From positions 1-30,187 of IMG/VR virus record IMGVR_UViG_3300037485_000114: DNA of 30,187 bases. One strand, given 5' to 3'. Shown here one piece after another: positions 7,339-30,187 of this stretch. Every line of letters starts with the position of its first letter. The stretch's first letter is position 1. Under the pieces are notes generated by a model, which saw only the letters and a list, made by a program, of their open reading frames with translations, had not been told where the DNA came from and did not search any database. Source of the DNA: a virus. A program made the translations under genes and the position numbers.

Positions 7339-8508
7339 TTACAAAGGTAGTCCGTTCTTTTTGATTATTAAGGTTGGGTCTAGTTTTTTCATTCGGTCAA
7401 CTATAACTTGGCAATACTTCGGGTCTAATTCCATACCATAGCATTTGCGTTTAAGTTGATGCGACGCAACCATTGTGGTTCCAGTACCGCAAAACATATC
7501 AATAATTGAAGTTTCTGTAAAGTTTTCAATGAAAAAACTTGGTAACTGAATAGGAAAAGTAGCTTTATGAATTTTTGCATATTCTTTACCTTGCTTCGAG
7601 TTTAAACTAAAAATATTATCAATAGTGCCTCTAAAATCTTTTTTACCAATGCTTCTTTTTGCATCATTTGAAAATATATGAATATACTCAAATCTTGAAT
7701 TTAAAACTTTTCTTGCCATTGCTGGTTCCGCATTTTGTTTATCCCATATCATTACATCAGCATAAACATTTTTTAGATTATATAAATGTTCAATTAATGC
7801 CATTTTGTTACCTGATAAACTTTGAATATTTGAAAAAACATAATCACTAAATAATAAAGAATTTTTAGTAAAACTATCTAATAAATCTACATATTCATCA
7901 TTGCTTTTTTTGTCATTATCATTTAAGTATTTTTGCTCATTTCCGTTAGGTGTTTTACCTACATTATATGGTGGCGAAGTAAAAGTAATATCCGCTTTAT
8001 TACCATTCATTAACTTTGCAACTGTATCTGAACAAGTACTATCACCGCAAAGCAATCTATGTTCCCCTATCTCAAATAAATCCCCTAAAACAATATCCGT
8101 TTCAATTCCACCATCAGGTACCGAAAAGTCATCTTCCTCAGCCTCTAATACAGTTGCATCAAAGTTTGGTATATCTAAACCCCAATCAGTTAATTCCTGA
8201 ACGTCCCAATTATTCGCCAGGTCGTCCCAATCCCACTCGCCAAAGCCTACATTATCCTTAATAATAAACTCATTCTTTTGTTGCTCCGTTAATGTAGCTA
8301 CTTTAACCGGAACTTCAGTTAGTCCGGCTTCAATACACGCCTTTAATCTCATATTGCCACCCAATACAATATTGTTTTCGTCAATTACTATCGGCCTAAG
8401 TTCTAGCATCTGCGGAAAGTCCTGTATAGACTTTACTAACTGTTTAAACTTATTATCCTTTATTAGCCTAGGATTGTTTGGGTTCGGTTTGATTTGTGTT
8501 ATTAGCAT
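7339..8508 (-). CDS. ParB-like domain fused to a beta-class DNA methyltransferase (orphan)
   Basis: The product has 389 residues in two parts. Residues 1-115 are ParB/Srx-like (IKPNPNNPRLI, PIVIDENNIVLGGNMRLKACIEAGLTEVPVKV), a domain often fused to phage methyltransferases. Residues about 138-385 are the methylase: catalytic motif TSPPY (177-181) comes before the AdoMet motif DMFCGTGTT (337-345), the order of beta-class N4-cytosine or N6-adenine enzymes, and the TSPPY form is common in N4-cytosine enzymes. No restriction enzyme is nearby, so it probably protects phage DNA against host restriction or marks DNA for replication or packaging. It overlaps the 40-residue basic protein upstream and lies next to the terminase genes. 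Confidence 0.92.
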   Translation of the reverse strand: MLITQIKPNPNNPRLIKDNKFKQLVKSIQDFPQMLELRPIVIDENNIVLGGNMRLKACIEAGLTEVPVKVATLTEQQKNEFIIKDNVGFGEWDWDDLANNWDVQELTDWGLDIPNFDATVLEAEEDDFSVPDGGIETDIVLGDLFEIGEHRLLCGDSTCSDTVAKLMNGNKADITFTSPPYNVGKTPNGNEQKYLNDNDKKSNDEYVDLLDSFTKNSLLFSDYVFSNIQSLSGNKMALIEHLYNLKNVYADVMIWDKQNAEPAMARKVLNSRFEYIHIFSNDAKRSIGKKDFRGTIDNIFSLNSKQGKEYAKIHKATFPIQLPSFFIENFTETSIIDMFCGTGTTMVASHQLKRKCYGMELDPKYCQVIVDRMKKLDPTLIIKKNGLPL

Positions 8509-10104: not shown

Positions 10105-10629
10105 TTATTTAGTTCTTAAATATTGTTGCATTGCATTCCTGTTGGCTTCTTTGTCTATGTCCTGGCTTGTACGGTTACTATCACCCATTGCCTTGAATTG
10201 TGCGTGTGCTTCGTCCTTACCATTCATAAAAGCTAGATGCCGCTCTTCACGGTATTTCTCAAGCATCTCAAAGAATGTAGGCATATCCATACGGTCATAT
10301 ACTTTGCCATATTTATATTTAACCATACCGTCAAGGAATAATAAAACGTCCTGGATAGCTAGTTGGTCCTGTTCAGCTTCATCTAATATCGCATAGCATA
10401 GATCGGTTATTTGCTCCGGTGTCATTGCTACCCTAAGATTGAAGTTGTTTAACGCTCTTGTAACTGATTTACTAAGTACGGCTGCTATCTTATCGTTTCC
10501 ATACATTTTTACTAAAGCCGGAAGCCTTTCACTTACTGGCACTAATTCAATTATCTTCAATGGCATTGCTTCGCCCTTATCTTTGAACCGGCATAGCTCA
10601 TTGTGTACGCCGCCATTATTTCCAATCAT
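10105..10629 (-). CDS. Conserved phage protein of the replication region, function unknown
   Basis: I choose the ATG at 10629 (174 residues, MIGNNGGVHNELCRFKDKGE), which overlaps the upstream replication gene by 14 bases; the longest frame from 10722 would overlap it by 107. The protein is alpha-helical: ERLPALVKMYGNDKIAAVLSKSVTRALNNFNL, then MTPEQITDLCYAILDEAEQDQLAIQDVLLFLDGMVKYKYGKVYDRMDMPTFFEMLEKYREER, and a polar tail. The segment with a Y-G-K-V-Y-x-R-x-D motif and a following M-L-E-K-Y helix resembles small helicase-loader or replication accessory proteins, but I cannot name a family. The position directly after a replisome-organiser-like gene supports a replication role. Confidence 0.7.
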   Translation of the reverse strand: MIGNNGGVHNELCRFKDKGEAMPLKIIELVPVSERLPALVKMYGNDKIAAVLSKSVTRALNNFNLRVAMTPEQITDLCYAILDEAEQDQLAIQDVLLFLDGMVKYKYGKVYDRMDMPTFFEMLEKYREERHLAFMNGKDEAHAQFKAMGDSNRTSQDIDKEANRNAMQQYLRTK

Positions 10630-11299
10630 TATGTCGTTTAATAAAGGCTTCGTGTAACTGTTGTTCGGTAACTTTTGGAGCGATTTTGTTTGTGTTTGTT
10701 GTATTTCGATTGATGATTTCATCGTTAAATGATTTTTGGTTTAAGTACGTTGTAGGGTGTTTTCTATATAATTTATCAGGGGTTGAATTAACATAATCTT
10801 TAACGGATTGTAAAGCTAAATCTTTTTCTTGCTCATTTAACTTTTGCCAAGACTTTTTAGCTTTTTCTTTTGATATTTTATAATCGTACCAAATCCACCA
10901 GTCCTCAAACTTCCAATCCCGTATTTCAGTTTTAGTTCTATTTATAGTTTCATTTACAGTTTCAGTTTCAGTTTCCATATGCTTAGCATATGCTTTGCTA
11001 GTGCTATCGTTTTTAGGTGATTTAGCATTATTTCGCCTGCTTTCACTAAACTTTTGCCTACGAATTGTTTCGTTATACATTCTTTCGTTGTAAAATGCAC
11101 CATTATCTATTTTAAACTTACACCAAATCTCATCGTCATATGCTTTGCATATGCTTAGCATATCCTTTTCAGTTAATTTGCCTTTTTGGTGTTGTAGGCA
11201 TAATAGCCTAATGTATTTTCCAACTTGTTCGTTTGACATTGTAAACGTCCCACTTAAAAAGTCGCTAGTATAAAATAATACTGCTGGGTCTTTGCTCAT
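10616..11299 (-). CDS. Replisome-organiser / DUF1376-like replication initiation protein
   Basis: The product has 227 residues. The N-terminal about 75 residues (DPAVLFYTSDFLSGTFTMSNEQVGKYIRLLCLQHQKGKLTEKDML) match the winged-helix pattern of phage replisome organisers and YdaU/DUF1376 proteins. A variable linker follows (about 85-125: SESRRNNAKSPKND, METETETVNETINRT), then a helical C-terminal part (WKFEDWWIWYDYKISKEKAKKSWQKLNEQEKDLALQSVKDYV, residues about 130-170, with TYLNQKSFNDE). Such proteins bind the origin and recruit host helicase. The linker codons carry hexamer and GCATATGC repeats that may be the origin itself. A promoter and attenuator-like leader lie upstream. Confidence 0.8.
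   Translation of the reverse strand: MSKDPAVLFYTSDFLSGTFTMSNEQVGKYIRLLCLQHQKGKLTEKDMLSICKAYDDEIWCKFKIDNGAFYNERMYNETIRRQKFSESRRNNAKSPKNDSTSKAYAKHMETETETVNETINRTKTEIRDWKFEDWWIWYDYKISKEKAKKSWQKLNEQEKDLALQSVKDYVNSTPDKLYRKHPTTYLNQKSFNDEIINRNTTNTNKIAPKVTEQQLHEAFIKRHNDWK
10957..10998. repeat. Iteron-like cluster A inside the replication gene
   Basis: Three tandem CAGTTT hexamers (10957-10974) are followed by CATATGC-TTA-GCATATG (10976-10992), a perfect 7-bp inverted repeat, and a further TTTGC. AGCATATGCT is a perfect palindrome (10985-10994). A related cluster lies at 11137-11163. Their location in the variable linker of a replication initiation gene recalls lambda O and lactococcal phage origins. 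Confidence 0.65.
11137..11163. repeat. Iteron-like cluster B inside the replication gene
   Basis: CATATGC-TTT-GCATATG-C-TTA-GCATAT repeats the cluster A elements in a different order. On the minus strand the shared block CTAAGCATATG is read as GCT-AAG-CAT-ATG in cluster A but as CTA-AGC-ATA-TGC in cluster B. The DNA is conserved while the encoded residues differ, which argues for a DNA-level function. Confidence 0.65.
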
Positions 11300-12315: not shown

Positions 12316-12882
12316 TTATAGATGGTTTTTCTTTGAGGTAAATAATGCTTGAATAGCTGAGTTTATTAACTCCTTATTTAAGGTATGTAATTTAGCCAAC
12401 TCTTGAACGTTTTCGCAAAAGTCTATTGCCAATGTTAAATCGGTAATATTTTTATGCTTTTTTAAATAGGCCGGTAAATCGTATTCCTTTTCTCCGGCTG
12501 CGTCCGTGTCCTTGTCAGTTACTAAGCCAAAGAATGAAGCTAAAGCATATCTGCGATAGTAAGTAATTCCCGATCCTAGCGACTGATATTCATTCATTCC
12601 CCTAAGAACTATTTGAGGTATTGTCACCTCGCTAGTAATTGTTTCGCTTGTCTCAATGTGGAAAACAATCGTTTGCAATTTGTCGTCCTGTAAAGGCTGA
12701 ATAAACCCTAGTTTATGCTTCTTTAATAAAGGCATAATTACTTTAAAAATTGCCGGTAAATCGGCATAGGTGTAATTGTGTCCGGTAGTCCCCTTATGGA
12801 TTACAGGGCATTCTTGTTGAAAGTCTGCAATGGCCTTATATAGTTTTAAGCCTTTGCGAAATTCATTTGTTGTCTCATTCAT
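12316..12882 (-). CDS. erf: ERF-family single-strand annealing protein
   Basis: The product has 188 residues. The family signature is clear: YTYADLPAIFKVIMPLLKKHKLGFIQP (37-63), LQTIVFHIETSETITSEVTIP (69-89) and EYQSLGSGITYYRRYALASFFGLVTDKDTDAAG (98-130), the last matching the conserved Q-x-x-G-S-x-x-T-Y-x-R-R-Y-x-L-x-x-x-x-x-L-x-x-x-x-D-x-D block. ERF proteins form rings on single-stranded DNA and anneal complementary strands, circularising or repairing phage DNA. The C-terminal 50 residues are short and helical. No matching 5'-3' exonuclease is obvious. It would act with the SSB-like protein and NinG. Confidence 0.93.
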   Translation of the reverse strand: MNETTNEFRKGLKLYKAIADFQQECPVIHKGTTGHNYTYADLPAIFKVIMPLLKKHKLGFIQPLQDDKLQTIVFHIETSETITSEVTIPQIVLRGMNEYQSLGSGITYYRRYALASFFGLVTDKDTDAAGEKEYDLPAYLKKHKNITDLTLAIDFCENVQELAKLHTLNKELINSAIQALFTSKKNHL

Positions 12883-12936
12883 AGCGTTGAATTTTGGTTA
12901 AATAATAATTAAAAATAAACAATAAATGTGAATAAA

Positions 12937-13245
12937 TCAAATAATCTCCATTAATTTTTTAATCTCGTCCTGGTAGTCATTGTCAAACCTTAAACTTAGT
13001 ACCTCTTCAATAGTTCGTAGGGCGTGTATTATGCTAGTGTGGTCTCTATAAAATAACCTGCCAATCTCTTTAAGAGTTAAGCCTGTTCTCTTCCTAACTA
13101 TATAAATAGCAATAAATCTAGCTTTTACATACCCTCTAAGTCGGAATTTGCCTTTAACCTGGGCAATAGTAAGACCGTAAAAGTCGCAAACGTCCTCAAT
13201 TATTTGTCGAGCGTGTTTTTGGTCGTTTTTTAATATCTTGCTCAT
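12937..13245 (-). CDS. Stand-alone DnaA domain IV-like DNA-binding protein
   Basis: I choose the ATG at 13245 (102 residues, MSKILKNDQKHARQ); an earlier ATG at 13275 is possible but increases the overlap with the upstream gene from 50 to 80 bases. The sequence matches the C-terminal DNA-binding domain of DnaA: IIEDVCDFYGLTIAQVKGK, then RGYVKARFIAIYIVRKRTGLTLKEIGRLFYRDHTSIIHALRTIEEVL. The RDHTSIIHA block corresponds to the DnaA signature G-R-D-H-T-T-V-I-H-A that contacts DnaA boxes. No AAA+ domain is present. It may mark or block DnaA boxes at the phage or host origin. Confidence 0.9.
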   Translation of the reverse strand: MSKILKNDQKHARQIIEDVCDFYGLTIAQVKGKFRLRGYVKARFIAIYIVRKRTGLTLKEIGRLFYRDHTSIIHALRTIEEVLSLRFDNDYQDEIKKLMEII

Positions 13246-13372
13246 CTTTCTGCTTGGTGCGGTCCAGTAGGTCATTTTGTAGTTTTTTAATTTGTGTTCT
13301 AAGTAATTCGTTTTCTAATTCTAGTATTTGTATCTCTCTTATTAATCCGTATTTGTTATCTATATAGCTCAT
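13196..13372 (-). CDS. Coiled-coil protein, 58 residues
   Basis: The frame is open up to 13435, but the ATG at 13372 overlaps the upstream stop as ATGA and gives MSYIDNKYGLIREIQILELE at the N-terminus. Residues about 12-40 (IREIQILELENELLRTQIKKLQNDLL) form a strong coiled coil; the tail is highly basic (DIKKRPKTRSTNN). The end of the gene overlaps the DnaA-like gene. It could be a dimeric accessory factor; no function can be assigned. Confidence 0.65.
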   Translation of the reverse strand: MSYIDNKYGLIREIQILELENELLRTQIKKLQNDLLDRTKQKDEQDIKKRPKTRSTNN

Positions 13373-28737: not shown

Positions 28738-29272
28738 TTTTTATACTTTTTTCTATTCTTAATTTTAATTTAGGTTTCTCCTGTTCAAATGCCGGTATTA
28801 AAAACGGTTGAGGTCTTAACCCCTTTCTTAATATACTTAGAGCAATAATATAAGCAGCCGACTTGGTTTGTTTGCCACTTGCTATGCCTTTCTTTTCTAC
28901 CCAAGCCATTAAAGCCTTAACCATTTCTTTAAACGTTCCCCCTGTCTTAGTCTTGAACTGTGATGCGTAACTTTCATATCCCGCAGGAATAGAAACCTTG
29001 CCACCTGTTCCAAACTCTATATAAGGCGCATATCTTGCCTTTGCTCCAACAGTAAACATAAATTGACTTGGCGATATAGAAACACTATCAAAAAATATAC
29101 TACCTCTTAAAGTGTTTAAATTAACCGGAGCTAATTTCTTAGCATCGGAATATATCTTTAAGGCTGAGGCACCTACTTCATCTTTGATTTCAGTTTGAAC
29201 CTTTTTACCATATTTGTCAAACTTACTTAAAGCCTCGCTCATTCCTTTTATGTCTATTGTTATTGTAGCCAT
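28724..29272 (-). CDS. HK97 gp10-like head-tail/tail completion protein, full right copy
   Basis: The product has 182 residues: a helical start (GMSEALSKFDKYGKKVQTEIKDEVGASALKIYSDAKKLAP), the strand segment VNLNTLRGSIFFDSVSISPSQFMFTVGAKARYAPYIEFGTGGKVSIP and the C-terminal LRPQPFLIPAFEQEKPKL. The family acts at the head-tail joint or tail end. Compared with the left copy, residues about 50-75 differ in many positions while flanks are nearly the same. It sits between head closure and tail completion genes. Confidence 0.88.
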   Translation of the reverse strand: MATITIDIKGMSEALSKFDKYGKKVQTEIKDEVGASALKIYSDAKKLAPVNLNTLRGSIFFDSVSISPSQFMFTVGAKARYAPYIEFGTGGKVSIPAGYESYASQFKTKTGGTFKEMVKALMAWVEKKGIASGKQTKSAAYIIALSILRKGLRPQPFLIPAFEQEKPKLKLRIEKSIKNAKS

Positions 29273-29614
29273 TTAAGCGTACATTTCTATTTCCCAAAAT
29301 CTATGCGCATTGTCCACGTCCTTAATTGAATGAATTGTAAACGTTTGTCCCTCTACAACTAATTGGTAAGTATCGCCTATTGTAAGGTCGTACCTAAGAA
29401 ATAGCTTTGCATATCTAGTAAAAGATAGCTGCATCTCCAATAACGCTCTATTTTGCGGCTGAGGCCTATAATCGCCCCATACAGTCGCTTGAAGAGTAAA
29501 AGTAGTAGTAAAACCACCTTCGCCATCGCTTGTCCGTGTTGGAGCGTAAACGCCTACTAAACGGGTCATCGAATTAGCGTCAACGTAATTGTCTTTATGT
29601 AGTCCTATTCTCAT
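29273..29614 (-). CDS. Head-closure / head-tail adaptor protein, right copy
   Basis: The product has 113 residues from the ATG at 29614, one base after the upstream stop (TAATATG). The frame is open further upstream to 29740 but that part overlaps the gp6-like gene. The protein is the same as at 514-855 apart from one residue (threonine at FTLQ). It caps the connector below the gp6-like ring. Confidence 0.8.
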   Translation of the reverse strand: MRIGLHKDNYVDANSMTRLVGVYAPTRTSDGEGGFTTTFTLQATVWGDYRPQPQNRALLEMQLSFTRYAKLFLRYDLTIGDTYQLVVEGQTFTIHSIKDVDNAHRFWEIEMYA

Positions 29615-29615
29615 A

Positions 29616-30146
29616 TTATAAAATTGGGCTTGTTCTTGTCCATCTTTGACATACTCGCCAAGTCTTTTCACATACTCCCATATCGTCAACGTCCATACCT
29701 CTATTCTCATAACCGTAGTTAATTTGATCCAATATAGCAATCTTTATCTCTTTTGGAACGGTTGACATTCCAGTAGTATAAATAGCTTTCATATTCGCCC
29801 ATTGTGGACGTTGTAAGTTTGGGTTTGGTCCACCTACTAAAATATAAACGTCGCTTGAAACTGCGTTACCGTTAGCGTCCGTTAAGCTAGTAAAGGCAGT
29901 CATCGGACCATAAGGAAGCTGAAAATCACCGGCTGAATTAGTAAACCATAAAGTCACCGTTTTAGGGGTAATACTTATGTTAGCGGCTTTCTCGACTGCT
30001 AATCTTGATTGGGTGATTAATTCATTAAACAAAGCATCTTCAACGTTGTTGTCAACTCTACAATATGCCTTTGCCTCTGCGAGTGTTACTGGCTCCGTTA
30101 TAGTGCCTAAATCTACTTGCGTGTAATCTATAATAAAATTATACAT
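29616..30146 (-). CDS. Head-tail connector protein, HK97 gp6-like, right copy
   Basis: The product has 176 residues and agrees with the left copy except for a cluster in the GNGNAVSSDVYIL-type loop (ANGNAVSSDV against ANGNAIANTV). The N-terminal EAKAYCRVDNNVEDALFNEL motif and C-terminal helix are identical. In the circular genome its upstream neighbour would be the capsid terminator at 1420-1450. Confidence 0.88.
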   Translation of the reverse strand: MYNFIIDYTQVDLGTITEPVTLAEAKAYCRVDNNVEDALFNELITQSRLAVEKAANISITPKTVTLWFTNSAGDFQLPYGPMTAFTSLTDANGNAVSSDVYILVGGPNPNLQRPQWANMKAIYTTGMSTVPKEIKIAILDQINYGYENRGMDVDDMGVCEKTWRVCQRWTRTSPIL

Positions 30147-30187
30147 ATTCCCTTTTTTACAAATTTACAATAATATAAATAAAAAAC

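Follow-up and report, generated by a model that had tools for sequence, protein, structure and literature searches.

CATATG repeats at helical pitch within a DUF1376-like initiator gene: a probable lambda-like in-gene origin of phage replication

The viral DNA analyzed here (30,187 nt, positions 1 to 30,187 of IMG/VR record IMGVR_UViG_3300037485_000114; hereafter the window) encodes on its minus strand a replication initiator of 227 amino acids (ORF 10616–11299), and the coding sequence of this protein contains two clusters of CATATG repeats. The clusters are very probably the iterons of an in-gene origin of the lambda kind, served by an initiator that is not lambda O but a DUF1376-like winged-helix protein. 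An iteron origin inside the gene had been put forward in a preliminary description of this DNA; relatives, in which the repeats are kept at the same place or the repeated word is replaced, support that reading as far as sequence comparison goes.

Cluster II (10976–10993, unstranded; CATATGCTTAGCATATGC; cluster A of the preliminary description) consists of two 11-bp units in the part of the gene that encodes the linker and codes for AYAKHM (residues 103–108). Cluster I (11137–11164, unstranded; CATATGCTTTGCATATGCTTAGCATATC; the former cluster B) lies 161 bp away and consists of three 11-bp units, of which, on the coding strand, two have CATATG and the third the degenerate form GATATG; it codes for residues 46–55 (DMLSICKAYD), i.e., for the helix-turn-helix itself. 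The units are 11-bp direct repeats built around a palindromic core, CATATG. Because 11 is not divisible by three, successive copies take different reading frames, and the core is read as H-M (CAT ATG), I-C (xxC ATA TGC), and A-Y (GCA TAT G). When the whole window was searched on both strands, all six copies of GCATATG were found inside the two clusters, as were 4 of the 5 copies of CATATG. The 17-mer CATATGCTTWGCATATG, with up to three mismatches allowed, gave 7 matches against 0.36 expected, a number reached in none of 100 shuffles. The two repeat clusters originally noticed at 10957–11163 are thus confirmed from the letters, and their description was right but understated: the shared DNA is indeed read in different frames, three of them rather than the two first proposed.

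Between cluster II and the C-terminal part of the gene runs a tract that is AT-rich and, on the coding strand, A-rich (10922–10975, unstranded; encoding ETETETVNETINRTKTEI); we propose it as a putative DNA unwinding element. In 47 relatives, the AT content at +15 to +45 past the last CATATG is 0.82–0.83 (gene mean 0.66), and A makes up about 0.54–0.57 of the coding strand there. The tract of the window ranks within the lowest 5.4% of 45-bp stretches for stability, a moderate instability that is suggestive only as evidence for an origin. It includes three tandem CAGTTT hexamers (10957–10974), the codons of Glu-Thr repeats. They do flank cluster II, as first described, but the hexamer itself is not conserved: relatives have other A-rich codons there (NENENE), such as GAA, AAT, ACT, and ATA, so the conserved feature is the A-rich tract, and CAGTTT was rejected as a separate binding site.

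The initiator consists of an N-terminal winged helix, a disordered linker, and a C-terminal helical domain. PHROG primosomal and replication initiation families match it with E values of 2e-10 and 4e-10. The match to DUF1376 (PF07120) scores 18.1 bits, below the curated cut-off of 30.1, and 28 of the 37 aligned relatives match DUF1376 at E up to 0.01. In an AF2 model built with these 37 relatives, pLDDT is about 90 for residues 11–90 and 130–190 and falls below 50 for residues 111–124, the disordered linker; helices 23–39, 44–51, 56–59, and 72–93 and strands 63–65 and 68–70 give the N-domain a winged-helix layout, and the C-domain is helical. The best structural matches found by Foldseek are predicted viral models named DUF1376. 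A search of PDB sequences with the initiator returned no relative, a Foldseek search against the PDB returned nothing under E 1, and the lambda O family was absent from the Pfam and PHROG matches at the limits used. Comparison with solved structures, informative at the level of fold only, placed the ORC2 winged helix first (Z 5.8), followed by ArsR- and MarR-type repressors. The sequence of cluster II and the A-rich tract corresponds in the protein to the N-domain tail and the disordered linker. The tail includes SRRNN (codons 87–91; 11027–11041, minus strand), and the C-terminal domain comprises residues 129–187 (10739–10915, minus strand).

The winged helix is the commonest repressor fold, the structural neighbors are mostly repressors, and self-controlled synthesis is common among initiators; the clusters could accordingly be an autoregulatory operator through which the protein blocks its own transcription, with the origin elsewhere. 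We consider this improbable. The sites lie 150–330 nt within the coding region rather than at a promoter; in 94 of 110 listed genes the array runs right up to the A-rich tract (offset from the last CATATG, 0 or −3 nt), which an operator would not need; moreover, the protein family is one of replication, with DnaB_2-type C-domains in relatives. Operator and origin roles could also coexist, and the initiator of an in-gene origin may additionally act as a repressor.

Two probe peptides of the first search for relatives touched cluster II (KAYAKHME comes from it, and the other ends beside it), so independent search routes were used, among them N-domain profile searches with probe peptides from outside both clusters. 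All routes pooled gave 188 listed initiators after near-duplicates had been taken out; counts refer to the matches listed in the collections and not to frequencies in nature. Every relative from the first search that covers both regions keeps CATATG. In close relatives, the doublets lie mostly at gene nt 147–163 (cluster I) and 308–324 (cluster II), and the array keeps its place in the gene even where N-domain identity has fallen to about 30%–45%. At least two copies of CATATG occur in 119 of the 188 listed non-redundant initiators, and the copy number in the linker runs from none or one up to seven. The 259 spacings below 50 bp between neighboring copies in these genes are dominated by two values, 11 bp (121) and 12 bp (109), which together account for 230 pairs, in all three frames; a further 26 are 22–24 bp. 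A search by DNA alone gave the same picture: in 2.9 million viral contigs, the 17-mer was found at at least 80 loci, 56 of those listed belonging to the initiator family. Of 17 relatives' records, 14 contain CATATG-N5-CATATG, and in each of these it is confined to the initiator locus; outside the initiator gene, CATATG occurs at 0.12 per kb. The comparison of related phages suggested with the preliminary description thus came out with the array kept at the same gene positions or, usually, with another repeated word substituted.

The array has limits within the wider group. It was not recognizable in some DUF1376-type genes (L180, L183, and L192) or in several bacterial DUF1376-type loci. The window protein shares with DUF1376 and with phage replisome organizer and primosomal proteins (PF07120, PHROG 9327 and 270) the fold of the N-domain and a position in the replication region; unlike members of that group it scores under the Pfam cut-off, and the alphaproteobacterial phage members that we checked (Pelagibacter, Sulfitobacter, Rhizobium, and Paracoccus) have no in-gene array. 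Among 786 Bacteroidota and Clostridia genomes, the N-domain profile matched three, two of which were search centers, which provided no useful held-out set; Pfam DUF1376 was dropped as a genome search probe, being too insensitive. The same palindrome was also seen outside the initiator family (L073, L078, L082, L094, L114, L122, and others, on contigs of up to 105 kb), in a few recurrent, short contexts such as KAYAKHMLL... and LNAYALHM....

Selection on the DNA rather than the protein, as first suggested, is borne out by the three-frame copies, by codon permutation, and by relatives that switched the word. Codon permutation of 47 genes with protein and codon usage kept constant gave 101 ± 4.9 copies of CATATG, compared with 187 in the real genes. 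In 31 closer, non-redundant relatives, codons AGC, ATA, and TAT, plus GAT (cluster I) and CAT, are 100% fixed at conserved cluster residues, and the share of the top codon is 0.94 at the clusters versus 0.67 elsewhere (permutation P 0.012, with only five informative codons). The small number of informative codons, together with the recurrence of KHMENEN-like peptides, is what could be said for the words being a by-product of protein conservation, the KHMENEN and LSIC motifs being what is needed. This is extremely unlikely: the 11-bp pitch puts copies into three frames that encode different peptides, almost half of the CATATG copies vanish under codon permutation, and whole-word switches alter the peptides. 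In L315, GCGTATG stands at all four places, which changes KHM to KRM and SIC to SVC.

Such switches affect both clusters together. Other words occupying both were found in L197 (GCCGTGGCA), L203 (GCCACGGCA), L185 (GATAACCC), and L200 (ACCTAAT). Nearly all listed non-CATATG genes that have the tract (43 of 44) contain a repeated 7-mer in the linker, and 20 of these 43 also have it in their own first cluster, against 2.0–3.5 expected from other genes. A word occurs at least three times in 21 of 48 non-CATATG linkers versus 1 of 48 C-terminal control stretches from the same genes (P 8e-7), and the pitch is likewise 11, 12, or 22–24 bp.

The word correlates with residues about 83–97 of the initiator, just past the winged helix. 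CATATG pairs are present in 69 of 75 genes with SRRxN tails and in 3 of 62 with other tails (Fisher 8.5e-28, for tail classes set after the data had been seen and for genes that share descent). Among GGRP tails, 12 of 20 go with AACCTAA/ATTAGG, and KQR..W tails go mostly with CCrCGGC, but also with ATACCA or GCAATGC/CCATGGC words. Within a single body type, RGQYIT (40 genes), tails still sort the words: 13 of 21 KQR..W genes have CCrCGGC and none CATATG, 9 of 17 GGRP genes have CCTAA, and both SRxxN genes have CATATG. In a held-out set, with the rule fixed beforehand, 41 of 43 SRRxN genes were as predicted. Taken over all classes, the held-out tail/word table does not reach significance (P 0.11), since only two genes belong to the other named classes and six near-variants of SRRxN (SRYNN etc.) had been put in the class "none." CATATG pairs are missing in six first-set and two held-out SRRxN genes. 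The linkers of L182 (gene at 206) and L597 (gene at 1201) carry an insert (CIYLIKDMLTGLTKIGSS...) that by eye resembles a GIY-YIG nuclease; it directly follows the tail and lies at or close to the iteron array.

On balance, we lean toward reading these correlations as a self-contained code, in which each initiator gene carries its own iterons twice, one set within the codons of the helix-turn-helix, and a short tail of the DNA-binding domain sets the word. On the same slightly favored reading, the code would extend through a large family in phages of Bacteroidota, Bacillota, and others, with origin specificity shifting by coupled changes in one gene.

The correlation with the initiator's own tail also bears on which protein binds the sites. 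A small protein of 112 aa encoded 1.6 kb away (12937–13275, minus strand) is a DnaA domain IV (Bac_DnaA_C, E 1.2e-19), and similar gene pairs exist in Rhizobium and Sinorhizobium phages, so this protein or host DnaA, rather than the initiator, might be the binder. We judge this very unlikely: the word and the initiator's own tail vary together; a domain IV gene is present in only 63 of 198 relatives' loci (many of them partial), and many long loci without one still hold CATATG; and CATATG is unlike a DnaA box, the window's sole consensus box lying at 12927, outside the initiator gene. The domain IV protein is possibly an accessory that the family does not need. In the Rhizobium and Sinorhizobium phages, it is a DUF1376 or primosomal protein that is paired with the DnaA-like gene. 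An oriC-type origin was rejected as well, the single consensus box in 30 kb (TTATNCACA) forming no cluster; this box adjoins the end of the domain IV coding sequence, near recombination genes. The same replication/recombination region contains a gene for an ERF-type single-strand annealing protein (12316–12882, minus strand; PF04404, E 1.7e-22). The GC-skew minimum that had been expected near 11 kb was not found: the curve does not turn at 11 kb and, once detrended, has its extremes at 14.8 and 27.8 kb. With the main genes almost all on one strand, GC skew is uninformative for the origin.

C-terminal domains are swapped for unrelated ones in relatives. The exchange takes place just after the A-rich tract, with N-domain and clusters retained (L042–L044 and L047 versus L018–L026); between L042–L044 and L018–L026, N-domain, iterons, and tract are almost the same, and the C-terminal domains are unrelated. 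In single relatives, the C-domain is Phg_2220_C or DnaB_2. The position of the exchange would suit a recombination site for C-domain exchange, and the phage encodes a ParB-like/N6-N4 methylase, which would suit CATATG as a modification or restriction site. Either explanation is exceedingly improbable, as a recombination site would not require a pair of clusters changing in concert, and phased spacing, varying copy number, and wholesale word switches are unexpected of a modification site. In the methylase gene (7339–8508), a ParB-like N-terminal part is fused to the N6/N4 DNA methylase.

From the arrangement of the clusters and its conservation, we infer protein binding, unwinding, helicase loading, and origin activity. 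The initiator would bind iterons one helical turn apart that are encoded in its own gene; the core of the phage's origin would consist of cluster II with the adjoining A-rich tract, and cluster I, about 160 bp off, would be a second binding array. The winged-helix N-domain, aided by the basic tail behind it, would contact the iterons, and bound copies of the initiator would distort or unwind the A-rich tract. The C-terminal domain, presumed to make the helicase-loading or replisome contact, would then recruit the replicative helicase on a tether that is the disordered linker encoded by the origin DNA itself.

The window resembles iteron plasmids such as F and R6K in its direct repeats, their roughly helical pitch, and the adjoining AT-rich element, which in the plasmids serves for unwinding; the plasmid iterons, however, sit outside the rep coding sequence, and the plasmid initiators are of the Rep_3 type. 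The layout as a whole is that of ori-lambda and of Stx lambdoid phages: iterons lie in the initiator gene between the DNA-binding and replisome-contact parts, an AT-rich, strand-asymmetric tract adjoins them (across relatives; moderate in the window alone), and their number varies. In ori-lambda, four 19-bp repeats in gene O are bound by the N-terminal half of O and lie next to a strand-asymmetric AT-rich tract of 40–49 bp; iterons number 4 in lambda and 6 in Stx phages (PMC4488673, PMC7466680). The window's family differs from ori-lambda in its pitch (11–12 bp versus repeats of about 19 bp), in having no lambda O match for the window protein, in the second cluster within the region coding for the DNA-binding domain, and in relatives that switch the word together with the N-domain tail. 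Given the different pitch and the lack of a lambda O match, we do not class it as a member of ori-lambda, though the layout is the same. A similar arrangement is found in the replication initiation gene of Staphylococcus phage PHB40a (L327, 1000–1821), where the linker-encoding part contains repeated GTCACGTGAC words and, after them, A-rich coding sequence; an 8-mer occurs four times there (P 0.005 versus codon permutations). The C-terminal domain encoded there is detectably similar to that of the window initiator, but N-domain and word are different; judging by this one locus, the PHB40a gene may be another in-gene origin. We found no earlier description of DUF1376 origins in the open-licence literature.

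If the proposed code is true, the binding specificity of an initiator could be read from its own coding sequence, origins could be predicted from sequence alone for very many uncultured phages, and dozens of natural initiator/site pairs would be available for probing the specificity code. The family would also be a clear case of a protein and DNA sites using the same bases in all three frames. A possible use lies in vectors that replicate in Bacteroidota, for which little is known about phage origins.

The record begins and ends with the same region (1–1428 and 28760–30187), in versions that are 94% identical (1346/1428). It therefore probably joins two variants of a genome that is circular or terminally redundant; a diverged duplication is the other possibility.
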